NCBI GenBank assembly: GCA_011375175.1
Contig: DRME01000110.1
Location: 1-53,429, forward strand
Direction of reading: 5' to 3'
Length of the DNA stretch: 53,429 bases
Source of the DNA: Deltaproteobacteria bacterium
GTDB lineage: Bacteria > Desulfobacterota > GWC2-55-46 > DRME01
The translations under genes were made by a program, and so were the position numbers. Of the stretch, positions 10,555 to 52,064 are shown one piece after another (the stretch's first letter is position 1; each line of letters opens with the position of its first letter). Under the pieces are notes generated by a model, which was not told where the DNA came from, made no database searches, and saw nothing but the letters and a program-made list of their open reading frames with translations.

Positions 10555-10763
10555 CGATTGCACTGAGGGAACCTTTTTGAAAAAAGGTTCCCTCAGACTC
10601 CCTCCAAAAACTTTTAATGCGAGTTGGCTTCCCCCTGTTTTGCCAGGCAAAACAGGGGGAAACCAGCTCGTATTGAAAGTCTTTGAAGGGGGTCTGGGGG
10701 AAACGTGGGCCTGTGGCCCTTCTACAGAAAGTTTCCCCCAGGGTATTTAATCAGGGCTTCCTT
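10555..10763 (+). repeat. Family A element, copy A2
   Basis: H1 is at 10563-10596. H2 is of the second sequence type (GAGTTGGCTTCC..., 10620-10670), with one mismatch and one wobble. H3 carries the 15-bp module GTGGGCCTGTGGCCC, and the right terminal repeat reads AAGGAAGCCCTGATT on the minus strand. Its last bases overlap the ppdK stop codon TAA (10762-10764). The element lies just downstream of ppdK (minus strand) and upstream of the smc promoter, so it separates the two transcription units. Confidence 0.9.
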
Positions 10764-13500
10764 AAGATTTGCGGCTGCTCTTTGCGCTCTTTCGTCCCCT
10801 GCCCTTTTTGCCTTCCTCGGCGTCCTTGAGCGCCGCGTGGGCCGCGGCGAGCCTTGCTATGGGGACCCTGAATGGAGAGCACGAGACGTAGTCGAAGCCG
10901 TTACGGTGGCAGAACTCCACGGTCGCCGGGTCTCCGCCGTGTTCTCCGCAGATGCCTATCTTGAGGTCTCTTCTCACGGCCCGGCCCTTTTCTATGGCCA
11001 TGCGTATTAGCAGGCCCACGCCCTCCTGATCGAGCGACTGGAAGGGGTCGTTTGCGAAGATGCCCGCGCGGTTCTCGTCTACGTAGACGGGGAGGAAGCG
11101 GCCCGAGTCGTCGCGCGACATGCCCATGGTCATCTGCGTGAGGTCGTTGGTGCCGAAGCTGAAGAACTCGGCCACCTCGGCCACCCTGTCGGCCGTGAGC
11201 GCGGCCCTGGGCACCTCGATCATGGTGCCCACCAGGTAGCGGACCTTGACGCCGTAGCCGGCCATGACGGCGGCGGCGACCTCTCTTGTGCGCGTAGCCA
11301 GTATGTCGAGCTCCTTTGCGTCTATGACGAGGGGGTGCATGATCTCGGGGAGCACGCGCACGCCCTTCTTCTTGCACTCGCAGGCGGCCTCCATGATGGC
11401 GCGCACCTGCACCTCCAGTATCTCGGGATAGGTGATGCAGAGGCGGCAGCCCCGGTGCCCGAGCATGGGATTGGACTCGTGGAGCCGCTCTATGCGGTGG
11501 CGCACCTGGTTGAAGGGGAGTTCGAGGGCCTGGGCCAGGAGCTTCTGGTCGCTTTCGTTGTGGGGGACGAATTCGTGGAGAGGGGGATCGAGCAGCCTGA
11601 TGGTGACGGGCTTTCCGTCCATGGCCTTGAAGATGCCGATGAAGTCCTTGCGCTGGAGCGGCAGGATGCGCTCGAGCGCCTCCTTGCGCGAGGCCGTGTC
11701 GTCGACCAGTATCATGCGCTGGATGGCGAGCCTCCTCTCGTCGGTGTCGAAGAACATGTGCTCCGTGCGGCAAAGCCCTATGCCCTCGGCGCCGAGTCGG
11801 ACGGCGTTCTCTGCGTCGTAGGGGGTGTCCACGTTGGTGCGCACCTTGAGGGTGCGGGCCTTGTCCACCCACTTCATGAGCTTGAAGTAGGAGTCCGGGA
11901 GCTGCGGCTTCTTGAGCCTAAGGGCCGCGCGGAAGACCTCGCCGGTGGAGCCGTCGAGCGTTATCTCGTCGCCTTCCTTTATGACCGTATTGCCCACGGC
12001 GGCCGTCTTGGCCTCGTAGTCGACCGCGAGGTCCTCGCATCCCACGACACAGCACTTGCCCCATCCGCGCGCCACCACGGCGGCGTGGGAGGTCTTGCCG
12101 CCCTTGGCCGTGAGGATGCCCTTTGCGGCGTGCATGCCGCCCACGTCCTCGGGGCTCGTCTCCTTCCTCACCAGGATCACGTCCTTGCCCGAGGCGGCCC
12201 ACTCCTCGGCGTCCTTTGCCGTGAAGACCACGTGCCCCGATGCGGCGCCCGGCACGGCTCCGATGCCGGAGGCGAAAAAGTGTTTTTTCCGCTCCTCGAC
12301 GGTTATGGAGGGGTCGATGATCGGGTAGAAGAGACCTTCTATGTCCTTCTCCGTTATCCTCTTGACGGCCTCCTCCTTCGTTATGAGCCGTTCCTTGACC
12401 ATATCGACGGCTATCTCGAAGGCGGCTATGGGCGAGCGCTTGCCCACGCGGCACTGGAGGATGTAGAGCTTGCCGTCCTCGATGGTGAACTCTATGTCCT
12501 GCATGTCCTTGTAGTGGCGCTCGAGCTTCTTGCGCACCTCGCAGAGCTGCTTGTAGGCCGCGGGCATTATGGTCCTGAGCTCATCGAGGTGGATGGGCGT
12601 GCGGATGCCGGCCACCACGTCCTCTCCCTGGGCGTTCATGAGCAGGTCGCCGTAGAAGACGTTCTCGCCGGTGCTCGGGTCCCTGGTGAAGCACACGCCC
12701 GTGCCGGAGGTCTCGCCCATGTTGCCGAAGACCATCTGGACGATGTTGACGGCCGTGCCGAGAAGCCCCGTTATGTTCTCCACGCGGCGGTAGGTCACGG
12801 CCTTCTCGGCCATCCACGAGCCTATGACGGCGTCTATGGCGCCCCAGAGCTGCTCGAGCGGGTCCTGGGGGAAGTCCTCGCCGGTGCTCTCCTTGTAGAC
12901 CTTCTTGAGGACGGGTATCAGCTCCTCCAGTTCTTCCTCGTTCACGTCCGTGTCGACCACGGCGCCGGTGCGCTTGCCCAGGCGAACGCGCGTTCTCCTC
13001 TGTTTTATGTCCTCGAACTCGTCCTCGAACCTGGCCTTGTCCACCCCCTTGGCCGTGGAGCCGTACATGAAGATGAAGCGGCGGTAGGCGTCGAGGGCGA
13101 AGCGGCGGTTCGAGGTCTTGCGCGCAAGACCCTCGACGGAGCGGTCGTTCAGGCCCAGGTTGAGGATCGTCTCCATCATGCCGGGCATGCTCCGCGCCGC
13201 GCCCGAGCGCACGGAGACGAGAAGCGGGTCGTCGGCGTCGCCCAGCTTCTTGCCCGTGAGCTTCTCCAGTCTCCTGAGGTGGGTCAGGACCTCGTCCTCG
13301 AATCCGGGAGGGTACTTCCTGCCGTGCCTGTAGTAATAGTCGCAGACTTCGGTGGTAATGGTGAAACCGGCGGGCACCGGCAGACCTATGTTGGGCATCT
13401 CCGCCAGTCCGGCGCCCTTACCACCGAGGAGATCCTTCATGTCCCCCCTGCCCTCGGCCTTGGCCGCGCCGAAGAAATAGACGTACTTTTTCCTGGCCAT
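10762..13500 (-). CDS. ppdK: Pyruvate, phosphate dikinase
   Basis: This enzyme interconverts pyruvate + ATP + Pi and phosphoenolpyruvate + AMP + PPi, serving gluconeogenesis or PPi-saving glycolysis. At 912 residues it is of family size. The N-terminal ATP-grasp domain starts YVYFFGAAKAEG and has GGKGAGLAEM and VRSGAARSMPGMMETILNLG. The central phosphohistidine domain has GGKTSHAAVVARGWGKCCV with the swivelling His near 472. The C-terminal PEP/pyruvate TIM barrel has GIGLCRTEHMFF and FSFGTNDLTQM, with the proton-donor cysteine in IGICGEHGGDP. The ATG at 13500 is the conserved start. It is divergent from gyrA. Its stop codon overlaps element A2. Confidence 0.97.
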   Translation of the reverse strand: MARKKYVYFFGAAKAEGRGDMKDLLGGKGAGLAEMPNIGLPVPAGFTITTEVCDYYYRHGRKYPPGFEDEVLTHLRRLEKLTGKKLGDADDPLLVSVRSGAARSMPGMMETILNLGLNDRSVEGLARKTSNRRFALDAYRRFIFMYGSTAKGVDKARFEDEFEDIKQRRTRVRLGKRTGAVVDTDVNEEELEELIPVLKKVYKESTGEDFPQDPLEQLWGAIDAVIGSWMAEKAVTYRRVENITGLLGTAVNIVQMVFGNMGETSGTGVCFTRDPSTGENVFYGDLLMNAQGEDVVAGIRTPIHLDELRTIMPAAYKQLCEVRKKLERHYKDMQDIEFTIEDGKLYILQCRVGKRSPIAAFEIAVDMVKERLITKEEAVKRITEKDIEGLFYPIIDPSITVEERKKHFFASGIGAVPGAASGHVVFTAKDAEEWAASGKDVILVRKETSPEDVGGMHAAKGILTAKGGKTSHAAVVARGWGKCCVVGCEDLAVDYEAKTAAVGNTVIKEGDEITLDGSTGEVFRAALRLKKPQLPDSYFKLMKWVDKARTLKVRTNVDTPYDAENAVRLGAEGIGLCRTEHMFFDTDERRLAIQRMILVDDTASRKEALERILPLQRKDFIGIFKAMDGKPVTIRLLDPPLHEFVPHNESDQKLLAQALELPFNQVRHRIERLHESNPMLGHRGCRLCITYPEILEVQVRAIMEAACECKKKGVRVLPEIMHPLVIDAKELDILATRTREVAAAVMAGYGVKVRYLVGTMIEVPRAALTADRVAEVAEFFSFGTNDLTQMTMGMSRDDSGRFLPVYVDENRAGIFANDPFQSLDQEGVGLLIRMAIEKGRAVRRDLKIGICGEHGGDPATVEFCHRNGFDYVSCSPFRVPIARLAAAHAALKDAEEGKKGRGRKSAKSSRKS

Positions 13501-13664
13501 AAAACCCCTCCCGCAAACAGTTTGGTCTACGATGCAAAAAGGTTAACAAAAATAGAGGCGGAAGTCATCAAGTAATTTCCCCGCCATGGCCTCTTTTTCC
13601 GCCCCCCGGCGGGCCGTGAGGGCCGTCCCGCCCCCTCCTGCTAAGGGGTCGAAAACAAAAAAGT

Positions 13665-13693
13665 TTGACACGATGGGCCATCCTTCATATCAT
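13665..13693 (+). promoter_or_regulatory. Sigma70-type promoter of gyrA
   Basis: TTGACA (13665-13670) and TATCAT (13688-13693), with a 17-bp spacer, match 6/6 and 5/6. The predicted start near 13700 falls within the first bases of element A3, so the whole element would be the gyrA leader. Confidence 0.75.
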
Positions 13694-13887
13694 TAGGGAA
13701 ACTCTGATTTATTGCACTGAGGGAACCTTTTTGCAAAAAGGTTCCCTCAGATTCCCTCCAAAAACTTTTAACGCCCTGCGGTTCATCCCGATTTTGCAAG
13801 CAAAATCGGGATGAACCGCAGGGAATTAAAAGTCTTTGAAGGGGGTTCCGGGGGAGACTTTCTACAGAAAGTCTCCCCCGGTCAATC
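13694..13887 (+). repeat. Family A element, copy A3, in the gyrA leader
   Basis: The left terminal repeat is GGAAACTCTGATTTATTGCA (13697-13716). H1 is at 13717-13750 with perfect 16-bp arms. H2 arms are at 13774-13797 and 13800-13823 (perfect). H3 arms are at 13848-13863 and 13866-13881. H3 differs from that of A1 at two paired positions, both compensated. Only 27 bp separate the element from the gyrA ATG at 13915. Confidence 0.92.
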
Positions 13888-13914
13888 GACCCGAATCTTA
13901 TCCGAGGAGAGACG

Positions 13915-16347
13915 ATGGGCCGCCAGGAAAGACCTGTAGCCATAGAAGACGAGATGAAGAAGTCCTACATGGACTACGCCATGTCCGTCATCGTGGGCAG
14001 GGCGCTGCCCGACGTGCGCGACGGACTCAAGCCCGTCCATCGCAGGATACTCTTCGCCATGCACGAGATGGGGGTGGAGTGGAACAAGCCCTACAAGAAG
14101 TCGGCCCGCGTGGTGGGCGACGTCATAGGCAAGTACCATCCCCACGGCGACGCCGCGGTCTACGACGCCATAACCAGGCTCGTCCAGGACTTCTCCATGC
14201 GCCACCCGCTCATCGACGGCCAGGGAAACTTCGGCTCCATCGACGGCGACCCTCCGGCCGCCATGCGCTACACCGAGGTGAGGATGGCGCGCCTGGCCTC
14301 CGAGCTCCTGGCCGACATAGACAAGAACACCGTAGACTTCACGCCCAACTACGACGATTCGCTCCAGGAGCCGGTCGTACTGCCGGCGTCGTTCCCGAAC
14401 CTGCTCGTCAACGGCTCTTCGGGCATCGCCGTGGGCATGGCGACCAACATGCCCCCCCACAACCTCTGCGAGGTCGTCGACGCCCTGGTGCGGCTCATCG
14501 AGGACCCGGAGGTTGAGGACGGGGAACTTCTCGATATCGTGCCGGGGCCGGACTTTCCCACCGGCGCGTTCATCCACGGCCGCAAGGGCATAGTCGAGGC
14601 CTACACCACGGGAAAAGGCGTCATCCAGATGCGCGCCCGCGCCGTCATAGAGAGCAACCCCCGCACGGGCCGCAAGTCCATCGTAATCACCGAGATACCC
14701 TACATGGTCAACAAGTCCAAGCTCATCGAGAGCATGGCGGCGCTGGTGCGCGACAAGAAGATAGAGGGCATCTCGGACATACGCGACGAGTCGGACCGCG
14801 ACGGCATGAGGGTCGTCGTCGAGCTCAAGCGCGACGAGACGGCCGAGATAGTGCTCAACAACCTCTACCTCCACACCCAGCTCCAGAGCTCCTTCGGCAT
14901 AATAAACCTCGCCATAGTGGACGGCAGGCCCAGGGTCCTCACCCTGCGCGAACTGCTCGGCCAGTTCATAAAGTTCAGAAGAGAGGTCGTCACAAGGCGC
15001 ACCGTCTTCGAGCTCCGGAAGGCGCGGGAGCGGGCCCACATACTCGAGGGGCTGCGCATCGCCATAGAGAACCTCGACGCCGTCATAAAGCTCATCCGCT
15101 CGTCGGCGGGACCGAAGGAGGCGAAGGCGGGCCTCGTGGAACGCTTCGGGCTCACGCAGGCCCAGGCCCAGGCCATCCTGGAGATGCGGCTCCAGAGGCT
15201 CACGGCGCTCGAGCGCGACAAGATAGAAGAGGAGTACAGGGCGCTGCTGGAGCGGATAGGGCGTCTCGAATCCATACTCGCAAGCCCCGCAAAGCTCATG
15301 GAGGTGATAACCGGCGAGCTGCTGGCCATCAAGGAGCGCTACGGAAACGAGCGGCGCACCGAGATAATAGAAGACACGGGCGAGCTCACGCCCGAAGACA
15401 TAATAGCCGAGGAGGAGATGGTCGTCACCATCTCCAAGCGCGGCTATATAAAGCGCAACCCCACGAGCCTCTTCCGCATCCAGCGCCGCGGCGGCAAGGG
15501 CAAGACCGGTGTGACCACAAGGGACGAGGACTTCGTCTCCCATCTGTTCATCGCATCGACCCACAGCTACATCCTCTTCTTCACCGACCGGGGCAAGGCC
15601 TATCCCCTGAAGGTCTACGACATACCGCAGGCCGGACGGGCGGCAAGGGGCAAGGCCATAGTCAACATCATCAACGTCGAGCCAGGCGAGAACATAACGG
15701 CCTTCCTGCCGGTCAGGGAGTTCGTCGAGGACCGCTACGTCACCATGGCGACCCGTCGCGGACTGGTGAAGAAGACGGCGCTCATGAGCTTTGCGAACAT
15801 CCGCTCCGGCGGCATCATAGCCATAAACCTCGACGAAGGCGACTCCCTCATCGCCGCGAGGCTGACCGACGGAAAGAAGAACATATTCCTCGGCACCAGG
15901 AAGGGCCAGTCCATCCGCTTCAGGGAGGAAGAGGTCCGTCCCATGGGGCGCAACACCAGGGGTGTAATAGGCATAAAACTCGCCGACGACGACGAGGTGG
16001 TCGACATGGAGGCCCTCGACGACGACGCCACCATCCTCACGGTCAACGAGAAGGGCTACGGTAAACGCACCCGCGTCGACGAGTACCGGGTCCAGTCGCG
16101 CGGCGGAAGAGGCATAATAAACGTCAAGATAACGGACAAGAACGGGCCCGTCATAGACATGGCCCAGGTGCGCGACAACGACGAGATAATGATCACCACC
16201 ACGAGCGGCAAGTTCATAAGGATAGCCATGAGCTCGGTGCCCGTCATCGGCCGGAACACCATGGGCGTAAGGCTCATGGACATAGAAGAAGGAGAAAAGA
16301 TCGCCAGCGCGGCGCCGCTTGCCGAGAAGAGCGAAGAGGCTTCTTGA
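13915..16347 (+). CDS. gyrA: DNA gyrase subunit A
   Basis: GyrA is the breakage-reunion subunit of gyrase, forming A2B2 with GyrB (absent here) to introduce negative supercoils. At 810 residues it has the normal layout. The winged-helix domain has [17 protein letters not shown], and the catalytic Tyr is 119 in [11 protein letters not shown] coiled coil follows, then the C-terminal beta-pinwheel with the GyrA box QRRGGKG (near 522), which favours gyrase over topoisomerase IV. The residue equal to E. coli Ser83 is Ala80, while Asp87 is kept as Asp84. ATG 13915 has GAGGAGA upstream. The gene stands behind a good promoter and an A element. A degenerate H3 hairpin begins right after its stop. Confidence 0.96.
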
Positions 16348-31144: not shown

Positions 31145-31226
31145 CCTGCGGCCCCCGGCAGGTTCGGACCGCGCCATGCGGGGTCTCTTTACGCCTTTGC
31201 GGTCCGAACCCGCCGGGGGCCGCAGG
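31145..31226 (+). repeat. Family B hairpin element, copy B1
   Basis: Arms at 31145-31172 and 31199-31226 (28 nt, one mismatch) close a 26-nt loop starting GCCATGCGGGG and ending TTACGCCTTT. The loop can form an inner GCG-rich stem with CGCC. The upstream flank CCCTCATATTCGGAC resembles the flanks of B2 and B4. It lies between the helicase gene and element A4. Confidence 0.85.
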
Positions 31227-31352: not shown

Positions 31353-31540
31353 AGAAAAGTTCTGCTTAATTACTCTGGGGGAAACTTTCTGTAGAAAGTT
31401 TCCCCCAGACCCCCTTCAAAGACTTTCAATCCGAGTTGGTTTCCCGCTGTTTTGCCTGGCAAAACAGCGGGAAACCAACTCGCGTTGAAAGTTTTTGGAG
31501 GGAGTCTGAGGGAACCTTTTTACAAAAAGGTTCCCTCAGT
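31353..31540 (-). repeat. Family A element, copy A4, in the hisIE leader
   Basis: It lies in opposite orientation to A1: terminal repeat, H3, H2 (second sequence type, perfect 25-nt arms at 31432-31456 and 31458-31482), then H1. H2 differs from that of A5 by one C-G pair swapped to G-C. It ends 25 bp before the hisIE ATG. Confidence 0.92.
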
Positions 31541-31565
31541 CACGGGGAGGTTGCGGGTCGGGACG

Positions 31566-32261
31566 ATGGAGGGTGATATAGGGAGGGGTGTTGACCTCAA
31601 GGAGATAAGGTTCGACGAGCGCGGGCTTGTTGCGGCCGTGGCGCAGGACGCCGTCACCGGCGAGGTCCTCATGGTGGCATGGATGAACGCCGAGGCCGTG
31701 GAGAAGACGCTTTCAAGCGGCAAGGCCCACTATTACAGCCGCTCGCGCCGAAGGCTGTGGCTCAAGGGCGAGACGTCGGGCAATTTCCAGTACGTCCGGT
31801 CGGTCTTCTACGACTGCGACGGCGACACTCTGCTGCTCAGGGTCGATCCCGCTGGGCCGGCATGCCATACAGGCGAGCGCACGTGTTTTTATCGGACCCT
31901 CAAGGACGGAGGCGGGGGGGACGGCGGGGGCGGCGAAGCGACGAGCCGCATAATAGACGAGCTCTACGGGGTGGTCGCCTCGCGCAAGGGAGCAGACGCC
32001 GCCAGCTCCTACACGGCCTCGCTCTACGCGGGCGGTCTCGCCAGGATAAACTCGAAGGTCGAGGAAGAGGCGGCCGAGCTCGTCGAGGCCGCAGCGCAAA
32101 AGGGTGACGACCAGGTGGTCCACGAGCTCTGCGACCTCTGGTTCCACACGCTCGTACTCCTTGCACACAGGGACATCGCCGTCAAGCGGGTCTACGACGA
32201 GCTTGCAAGACGTTTCGGGACCTCGGGCATAGAGGAAAAAAAAGCGAGAAAGAGAGGTTGA
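31566..32261 (+). CDS. hisIE: Bifunctional phosphoribosyl-AMP cyclohydrolase / phosphoribosyl-ATP pyrophosphatase
   Basis: This enzyme performs steps 2 and 3 of histidine biosynthesis. The 231-residue fusion has HisI first ([36 protein letters not shown], with metal ligands in [10 protein letters not shown] and [10 protein letters not shown]). A glycine-rich linker follows, then HisE ([16 protein letters not shown] and [19 protein letters not shown]). The ATG at 31566 is preceded by a GGGAGG about 20 nt upstream, so the start is not certain; a downstream ATG at 31674 would lose conserved sequence. Other his genes are not in the window. The HIT gene follows 6 bp later. Confidence 0.94.
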
Positions 32262-38298: not shown

Positions 38299-38510
38299 TA
38301 AGGAAACTCCGATTTATTGCCCTGAGGGAACCTTTTTGTAAAAAAGGTTCCCTCAGACTCCCTCCAAAAACTTTTAACGCGAGTTGGTTTCCCCCTGTTT
38401 TGCCTGGCAAAACAGGGGGAAACCAACTCGTATTGAAAGTCTTTGAAGGGGGTCCGGGGGAGACGTGGGCCTGTGGCCCTTCTACAGAAAGTTTCCCCCG
38501 GGGAAGTCAG
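38299..38510 (+). repeat. Family A element, copy A5
   Basis: The left end TAAGGAAACTCCGATTTATT is preceded by a scrap of another H3 (38285-38298). H1 is at 38322-38356. H2 is of the second type with perfect 25-nt arms (38380-38404, 38406-38430). H3 carries the GTGGGCCTGTGGCCC module (38464-38478). It lies between the stop of the PAP2-GT39 gene and the start of the GTPase-like gene, both minus strand. Confidence 0.92.
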
Positions 38511-44880: not shown

Positions 44881-45092
44881 CTCAGGGAACCATGATTTAC
44901 TTCACCGGGGAAGCTTTTTTGTGGAAGGGTCGAAGCCCCCTCTTCAGGGTCAAAGACCCCCGTCTTCCGGCGGGGAATGAACCGGAGTTGCATGGAAGAG
45001 CCCCTTGTTTCGGTCACACGGCGCCGCTGCGGCCGGACCGCGCCAGGCGGGGTTCTTTTACGCCTTTGCGGGCCGGCCGCCCCGGCGCCGTG
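44881..45092 (-). repeat. Degenerate family A half joined to family B hairpin B3
   Basis: The A part (about 44881-44970) keeps a terminal repeat-like AGGGAACCATGATTTACTTC and an H3-like stretch with a GGGTC...GCCCCC tip. B3 has 25-nt arms (45017-45041, 45068-45092; three mismatches) around a 26-nt loop GCCAGGCGGGG...TTACGCCTTT. It lies upstream of the aldehyde dehydrogenase gene. Confidence 0.75.
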
Positions 45093-45241
45093 CGGGCAAA
45101 GGGCCTCCCCGAGAACAATCGGCCGCGGAATCCCCGGTATTGAGGTGAATATTCAACGGCTTACAGGGAAATTATAGCAGAGGGATCGGGGCTCGTCCAG
45201 AAGCCTTGGGGGGAAGGTAAGGTATATCAATTTGTGTCAGT

Positions 45242-45460
45242 AAAGGAAGCTCTGATTAATTACCCTGGGGGAAACTTTCTGTAGAAGGGCCATGGGCCCA
45301 CGTTTCCCCCAGCCCCCCTTCAAAGACTTTTAATTCCCTGCGGATCATCCCGATTTTGCAAGCAAAATCGGGATGATCCGCAGGGCGTTAAAAGTTTTTG
45401 GAGGGAGTCTGAGGGAACCGTGGGTCTGTGACCCTTTTACAAAAAGGTTCCCTCAGAATA
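45242..45460 (-). repeat. Family A element, copy A6
   Basis: Terminal repeat AAGGAAGCTCTGATTAATT; H3 with the module (45287-45301 region); H2 of the first type, perfect arms at 45336-45359 and 45362-45385, with a paired T-to-A/A-to-T change relative to A1; H1 also carries a module variant (GTGGGTCTGTGACCC). It ends 16 bp from the nfnB stop and probably provides its 3' end. Confidence 0.92.
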
Positions 45461-45476
45461 GTTTAAGCGGCGAGGC

Positions 45477-46934
<1,458 letters not shown>

Positions 46935-46950
46935 TTAGTCCGCTCTTTTT

Positions 46951-47156
46951 GGGAAACTCTGATTTATTGCACTGAGGGAACCTTTTTGTAAAAAGGCTCC
47001 CTCAGACTCCCTCCAAAAACCTTTGACGCCCTGCGGTTCATCCCGATTTTGCTTGCAAAATCGGGATGAACCGCAGGGAATTGAAAGTCTTTGAAGGGGG
47101 TCCGGGGGAAACATGGGCCTGTGGCCCTTCTACAGAAAGTTTCCCCCAGGGTAATC
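46951..47156 (+). repeat. Family A element, copy A7, between nfnA and nfnB
   Basis: Left repeat GGGAAACTCTGATTTATTGC; H1; H2 of the first type, perfect arms at 47029-47052 and 47055-47078; H3 with a module variant ATGGGCCTGTGGCCC. The right terminal repeat is cut short so that its TGATTACCC (minus strand) supplies the nfnA stop codon TGA (47155-47157). It lies within what should be a two-gene operon. Confidence 0.92.
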
Positions 47157-51707: not shown

Positions 51708-52064
51708 AGAAAGCCCTGACCAATTGCCCCGGGGGAAACTTTCCGAAAAAGGGCCGCAGGCCCCTCTTCTCCCCGCGGCCCCCTCGTATGTTATGCGGAT
51801 CTTTGACGGTCCTCTGGAGGTTCGGCCCGCGCCAGGCGGGATTTTTTTACGCCTTTGCGGCCCGAACCTCCAGAGGACCGCCCCCCCCCGGGCAGCTAAA
51901 GCGGGCAAGACACCCCCTTCAAAGACTTTCGATTCCCTGCGGTTCCTCCCGATTTTGCTTGCAAAATCGGGAGGAACCGCAGGGCGTTAAAAGTTTTTGG
52001 AGGGAGTCTGAGGGAACCTTTTTACAAAAAGGTTCCCTCAGTGCAATAAATCAGAATTCCCCTG
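51708..52064 (-). repeat. Family A element A8 interrupted by family B hairpin B4
   Basis: The terminal repeat (CCCTGACCAATTGCCCC) and H3 left arm (51730-51743) lead into a GGGCCGCAGGCCC tip. Then comes B4: flank CCCTCGTATGTTATGCGGA; arms 51807-51830 and 51857-51880, one mismatch; 26-nt loop 51831-51856. A resumes at CACCCCCTTCAAAGAC (about 51911). H2 arms are 51935-51958 and 51961-51984, with a paired A-to-C/T-to-G change. H1 and the right repeat end near 52064. It lies upstream of ispA. Confidence 0.88.

Follow-up and report, generated by a model that had tools for sequence, protein, structure and literature searches.

The gyrA gene in the 53,429-nt stretch of DNA analysed here (the window; contig DRME01000110.1 of a Deltaproteobacteria draft genome) very probably carries a MITE that landed at a YTAR-type site on the -10 edge of its ancestral promoter and that now makes up most of the predicted leader, a placement that recurs at other genes. 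The features at this locus, in window coordinates, are as follows.

10762..13500, minus strand: pyruvate phosphate dikinase gene (gene call and Pfam), divergent, beyond the gyrA promoter
13665..13693, plus strand: gyrA promoter TTGACA-17-TATCAT, from the sequence and the relatives' counterparts, which have a similar spacer end and -10
13693..13696, no strand: TTAG, a target site of YTAR type that shares the final T of the -10; no second copy of the duplication is recognisable
13697..13903, plus strand: three-hairpin MITE (element A3 of an earlier note on this DNA), about 207 bp, right limit approximate
13697..13713, plus strand: left terminal inverted repeat GGAAACTCTGATTTATT, from a repeat search; the predicted +1 (about 13700) lies inside
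13717..13750, plus strand: hairpin 1, a perfect 34-bp palindrome with 17-bp arms and loop 0
13752..13845, plus strand: hairpin 2, lower stem with fixed mismatches, upper stem variable and nearly always perfectly paired
13848..13881, plus strand: hairpin 3 (34 bp), 16-bp arms and loop 2, with two compensated double changes relative to the commonest pairs of the aligned copies
13882..13903, plus strand: probable decayed right terminal repeat (weak)
13904..13909, plus strand: ribosome-binding site GAGGAG (by eye), unpaired with a mean probability of 0.55 when the predicted transcript is folded
13915..16347, plus strand: gyrA, 810 aa (PF00521, 6.7e-169)

The earlier note had described a near-consensus promoter ending at 13693, and we find the same one: TTGACA (13665-13670), a 17-nt spacer and TATCAT (13688-13693), scoring 11 of 12; dinucleotide shuffling of the 400 nt in front of gyrA never reached that value in 300 trials. 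Promoters were also scored at 29 gyrA loci of the 37 relatives with a GyrA match, all from the same order (71-76% GyrA identity at these loci; UBA5799, at 74%, is the nearest named relative among the matches listed). A counterpart scoring at least 10 of 12 within 400 nt was present in 27 of the 29, compared with 5.9% of dinucleotide shuffles, the exceptions being one locus without a promoter of such score (L042) and one at a contig end (L055). These 27 promoters share the spacer end AAAnCCTTnA and have an A/T-rich block directly behind the -10, with majority AAAATATT (base by base A in 23, A in 13, A in 22, A in 18, T in 15, A in 15, T in 21 and T in 21 of 27). The window has TAGGGAAA in place of the AAAATATT-like block because the element starts there. 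The comparison marks TTGACA-17-TATCAT as the ancestral, predicted sigma-70-type promoter of gyrA.

Across the 218 nt that separate the start of the element from the ATG, no site scores above 7 of 12, and none in the last 35 nt above 4 of 12; as previously argued, a second predicted sigma-70-like promoter of comparable score does not fit between the element and gyrA. On the far side of the promoter, towards the dikinase gene, lies a motif GTCATCAAGTAATTT (13564-13578) that is perhaps part of the divergent promoter; two relatives (L041 and L031, by eye) have an exact or near match to it upstream of gyrA.

The terminal repeat GGAAACTCTGATTTATT begins at 13697, 3 nt behind the -10, which agrees with the element start formerly put at 13694-13697. 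The gyrA +1 was placed at about 13700 from the position of the -10, and with the element starting where it does, nearly the whole predicted 5' untranslated region is therefore element sequence. The expected three stable hairpins were found at 13717-13750, 13752-13845 and 13848-13881. A perfect palindrome of 190 bp, as had been claimed, was not found: the element is 78% identical to its own reverse complement over most of its length, and its perfect parts are three separate inverted repeats of 34, 50 and 34 bp, the second being the upper stem of hairpin 2 (13774-13823, 24-bp arms, loop 2). The left end of this copy is perfect and adjoins TTAG, while the right end has decayed, with 10% of shuffles scoring as high against the generic repeat. 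The figure of 27 bp given for the gap between element and ATG depends on where that end is placed; the ATG at 13915 is separated by 33 nt from hairpin 3 (ending at 13881) and by 11 nt from the right end if that is put at 13903, its probable position. For a predicted transcript of 275 nt starting at about 13700, the folding energy is -143.7 kcal/mol, and the ribosome-binding site is half open in the fold. At gathering thresholds, Rfam returned only a tRNA in the window and matched the element to no RNA leader family, and searches of plasmids and phages gave no match to it.

The three-hairpin module was found in front of gyrA in none of the 29 relatives, within the stretch scanned for motifs (300 nt, or 179 nt in L055); in two relatives with promoters 324 and 353 nt from the start (L033 and L043), 450 nt were inspected by eye. 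The nearest match to the arm motif has 3 mismatches of 17 and lies upstream of the promoter in L039. With the promoter kept in 27 of 29 relatives, the module absent there and the element only 3 nt behind the -10, the proposal that the element forms the gyrA 5' leader is borne out as far as sequence comparison reaches. Upstream of the gyrA promoter in another relative (L054) lies an element with the same ends, another interior and TTAG on both sides; the gyrA leader of L033 has a different palindromic insertion, and L055 a seemingly related one (by eye). The gyrA upstream regions have therefore taken up such elements repeatedly, at different positions. By eye, the palindromic insertion in or near the gyrA leader of genomes G029 and G033 (L033 and L055) has CTCTAAAAATT-type ends.

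Searching the 2.49-Mb draft genome with the terminal repeat at up to three mismatches gave 253+257 matches (510 ends), compared with 1+0 for a reversed-pattern control, or roughly 250 elements with such ends, not all of them three-hairpin. At up to two mismatches, at least one match was found in 33 of 39 genomes of the order (this one included), with counts up to 216+224 here and 150+155 in genome G012; controls reached 2+2, so the lowest genome counts are at chance level. We paired terminal repeats at 45 places in 304 kb, and 18 of these pairs are flanked by an exact 4-bp duplication (shuffled mean 2.6, maximum 10 in 500 shuffles), with no comparable excess among the 45 for lengths of 2, 3 or 5-9 bp. 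Strict YTAR accounts for only 7 of the 18 exact duplications, but when the flanks of 176 ends are tallied, the frequencies are Y.89, T.69, A.80 and R.89. In G012, where the ends and the target are the same, the interior is of quite another kind (exact duplications at 12 of 20 pairs; shuffles averaged 4.3, with a maximum of 9 in 300), so the ends look like a mobile chassis. One copy apparently lies inside the terminal repeat of another (L143). With terminal inverted repeats, many copies and a fixed 4-bp target duplication, the three-hairpin element is, by its sequence features, a MITE.

The element ends, of type GGAARCTCTGATTWATT, begin GGAA, as the end of IS5 presumably also does. The 4-bp duplication with a YTAR profile is a likeness to the IS5 group and its MITEs, the IS5 target being given as YTAR in passages of PMC10359306 and PMC5493358; unlike the IS5 group, the element has a three-hairpin interior, and no IS5-type transposase was found in the draft genome. 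Profiles PF05598, PF01609 and PF01797 were all absent from it at E<=0.001, and their respective controls gave a signal in only 3, in 9 and in 5 of 14 genomes. PF01609 was present in 1 of the 39 genomes searched, where its two frames have none of the element's ends alongside, one end lying more than 1 kb away in L181. With hundreds of ends and no IS5-type or Y1 transposase detected in the genome, the family is apparently orphaned. Elsewhere in the order, some genomes have the three-hairpin core between outer ends of another sequence, such as GCAGGTTGCTGA (L021-L029); core and ends therefore seem to recombine.

The placement seen at gyrA was found repeatedly. In a first look at 37 element-gene arrangements, 10 had a promoter scoring at least 9 of 12 closely abutted by the element start, compared with 1 of 111 comparison stretches taken farther upstream. 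We then scanned the flanks of element ends, most of them from stretches chosen because they bear the element; we required at least 70 nt of flank, which kept 178 ends, of which 176 are distinct. A promoter-like site of at least 9 of 12 reading into the element was present at 25 of the 176 (whole-flank shuffled mean 4.65). At 14 of these the gap between the -10 and the element is 0-8 nt (shuffled mean 0.65, maximum 3 in 20 shuffles), and for 13 of the 14 it is 2-5 nt; leaving gyrA out gives 13 of 175, and at a threshold of 10 of 12 there are 7 compared with 0.05 expected. The other 11 inward-reading ends have their site at 14-54 nt, and 11 ends have an outward-reading site, so the flanks of the element are promoter-rich in general, and the peak at 2-5 nt stands out from them. 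Looking at the -35 alone also supports the peak: a -10-like hexamer lies at 2-5 nt from 36 ends, and 6 of these have a -35 that scores at least 5 of 6 (0.14 expected); the same test at 9-12, 16-19, 23-26 and 30-33 nt gave 0, 1, 0 and 0.

The window itself holds a second copy in the same arrangement:

31355..31545, minus strand: second copy, limits approximate, left end with 4 mismatches

Here a TTGACA promoter with a TATCCT-type -10 abuts the element, which is followed by hisIE (31566-32261); because its terminal repeat has 4 mismatches, this place is left out of the 176 ends. For the 15 places (14 plus hisIE) the next gene could be resolved at 13, using, as in the first look and in the orientation count below, our own hexamer gene finder for gene neighbours, not curated annotation. 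In 13 of 13 this gene is co-directional and first after the element, and in 10 of 13 it begins 211-277 nt from the element start. Genes behind these copies include gyrA and hisIE (Pfam); others look, by eye only, like hisD, mobB, hsp20 and nhaA. At 8 of the places the core is h1-first and at 6 h3-first, and one place has no core. In five sampled relatives the signal is weak: if only the best-scoring hit is taken, 5 of 79 ends fall within 0-8 nt, or 6 if any hit of that score counts, compared with about 1.2 by shuffling; the best hit falls at 2-5 nt for 2 ends, and the G035 stretches gave no ends. The -10-edge habit is therefore shown for the one genome only, and what is new is that in this genome insertion at the -10 edge is a habit. 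No description of the three-hairpin element or of a MITE targeting the -10 edge was recognised among the literature matches listed.

One further reading of this habit falls somewhat short of an even chance. In it, a MITE family orphaned of its transposase would specifically target YTAR at the downstream -10 edge, where DNA is melted in the open complex of RNA polymerase or destabilised by supercoiling; promoters would stay alive, and the element would have become the structured 5' UTR of a whole set of genes including gyrA.

The peak could also arise by survival: elements would insert at random YTAR-like sites, and only the tolerated insertions would be left at the -10 edge. Among 54 copies for which both neighbouring genes were called, none interrupts a predicted gene; purifying selection is therefore likely, and this, together with the generally promoter-rich flanks, favours survival without targeting. 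Against it, 13 ends sit at 2-5 nt compared with 11 spread over 14-54 nt, where insertion spares the promoter as well. Nor is YTAR any denser at 2-5 nt than farther on behind element-free promoter-like sites (ratio 1.10 at 2-5 nt and 0.98 at 9-30 nt, from about 1 and 10 sites, few in number), so the peak is not accounted for by motif and promoter simply coinciding. Survivorship alone is a doubtful account, but survival bias could contribute to the -10-edge peak.

A domesticated RNA leader would be expected if selection kept the three-hairpin RNA as an mRNA stabiliser or an RNase III site, for which parts of the literature on Correia and ERIC elements offer precedents. We aligned 25 of 56 full-length cores, chosen for their plain outer stems (alignment A1). 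Of the 73 pairs predicted, 17 show double changes, and the 24 upper-stem pairs of hairpin 2 show no one-sided change, with 5 of 600 cells broken or gapped; the two compensated pairs in hairpin 3 of the gyrA copy point the same way. Most of the double changes nevertheless distinguish two main stem sequences, carried by 11 and 14 of the aligned copies, and are therefore not independent. Perfect pairing can result from selection on structure or from palindrome correction during replication. The orientation and neighbour count used 60 of 61 cores (one was a duplicate entry), including 6 at the edge of a stretch or contig; cores between tandem genes lie 24 along transcription and 17 against it, and both orientations occur at promoter edges too (8 and 6, as above). 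With no clear orientation bias, palindrome correction fits better than structural selection, and we regard a domesticated leader as improbable.

The earlier note had called a DNA-topology sensor conceivable, in which cruciform extrusion of the leader palindromes would couple gyrA expression to supercoiling. This sensor was checked against gyrB, topA and the topA genes of relatives, and it was not supported; the sole favourable result of these checks was a copy ending about 55 nt upstream of topA (L185, at the G000:C53 end, the contig ending inside the copy). Such a sensor would be consistent with three perfect inverted repeats (34, 50 and 34 bp) that follow directly on a promoter, and gyrase genes respond to relaxation in E. 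coli in the account we cite here. On the other side, about 250 elements with these ends are spread over the genome, and the same placement in either orientation at unrelated genes such as hisIE looks like an insertion habit rather than a gyrase-specific sensor. The gyrB leader has no element, the nearest copy being about 0.85 kb upstream of gyrB; the module precedes gyrA in none of the 29 relatives, and the element was found in none of 28 relatives' topA upstreams scored (L207 was left out). In several relatives an upstream gene, candidate dprA by eye, ends just before topA. With so many copies, by our own estimate, one coincidence at topA is not unusual. A passage of PMC6170449 attributes the relaxation response of E. 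coli gyrA to about 20 bp around the -10, so the insertion, if anything, changed the sensing region and added no sensor. We consider a topology sensor highly improbable.

An assembly misjoin across the 200-bp repeat that put gyrA behind a foreign promoter is scarcely credible: several contigs do begin or end within the element, but the left side here is the promoter conserved upstream of gyrA in relatives and the right side is gyrA, so both sides belong together.

Returning to insertion of a MITE at the -10 edge of the gyrA promoter, the transposase moving these ends would prefer YTAR-like sites between -10 and +1 of promoters, where the DNA melts easily, by analogy with what has been proposed for IS5 and duplex-destabilised DNA. 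The promoter would survive, and gyrA would be transcribed through the element. In the folding model, the gyrA mRNA would start with three stable hairpins and have its ribosome-binding site about half open. The discriminator and initial transcribed sequence would have changed from AAAATATT-like, as in the relatives, to TAGGGAAA. The structured 5' end may be cut by RNase III or may slow decay. DNA topology would then influence the choice of landing site and would not be a signal read out by the gyrA copy, and the changed start-region sequence and RNA processing appear likelier effects than a dedicated topology sensor. Against this explanation we count the decayed right end, the lack of a recognisable second duplication, the low share of strict YTAR (7 of 18) and the failure to find a transposase, as well as the promoter-rich flanks, the weak signal in five relatives and the sampling of stretches biased towards the element.

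Mobile elements near promoters are already known in bacteria. For IS5, a preference for destabilised, easily melted promoter DNA is proposed in a section of PMC5493358. According to part of PMC10969869, a Correia element lies directly behind the mtrCDE promoter in Neisseria and its hairpin leader RNA is cut by RNase III. The gyrA element resembles Correia/NEMIS in being a short MITE directly behind a promoter with a predicted hairpin RNA in the leader, a likeness of placement; unlike the Correia case, it peaks 2-5 nt behind the -10 at several genes. TnGBS-type elements insert 15-17 bp upstream of the -35, as stated in an extract of PMC3942029, and unlike these and the other Mutator-superfamily groups that insert upstream of promoters (ISLre2, ISKra4), our element lands downstream of the -10. 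Like ERIC and REP/BIME it is an abundant intergenic palindromic repeat; unlike them it has terminal repeats and a YTAR-type 4-bp duplication, and the REP-associated Y1 transposase is PF01797, one of the profiles absent from the draft genome. If the sharp 2-5 nt peak is true, it amounts to clean promoter-sparing targeting that has given several genes, an essential one included, a common hairpin leader. The natural leader replacements offer a ready set for studying the effects of 5' hairpins and of the sequence behind the -10 on expression and on the response to supercoiling.

Many copies have small hairpin cassettes, GGGTCAYAGACCC or GGGCCTGTGGCCC, inserted in their outer stems. The cassette-bearing copies in the window are:

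10598-10790: cassette-bearing copy
38358-38500: cassette-bearing copy
45236-45467: cassette-bearing copy
46943-47155: cassette-bearing copy

A second palindromic motif with TTTACGCCTTTGCGG occurs at 31149-31223, 45018-45092 and 51807-51881, and in several copies it replaces hairpin 3. On the h3-first strand of two copies (L184 and L185) the element is open in one frame, and the two encode similar peptides. Elsewhere in the window, a 16-bp repeat CCCCTGTCTGCCGTTG is present in tandem at 2064-2127.
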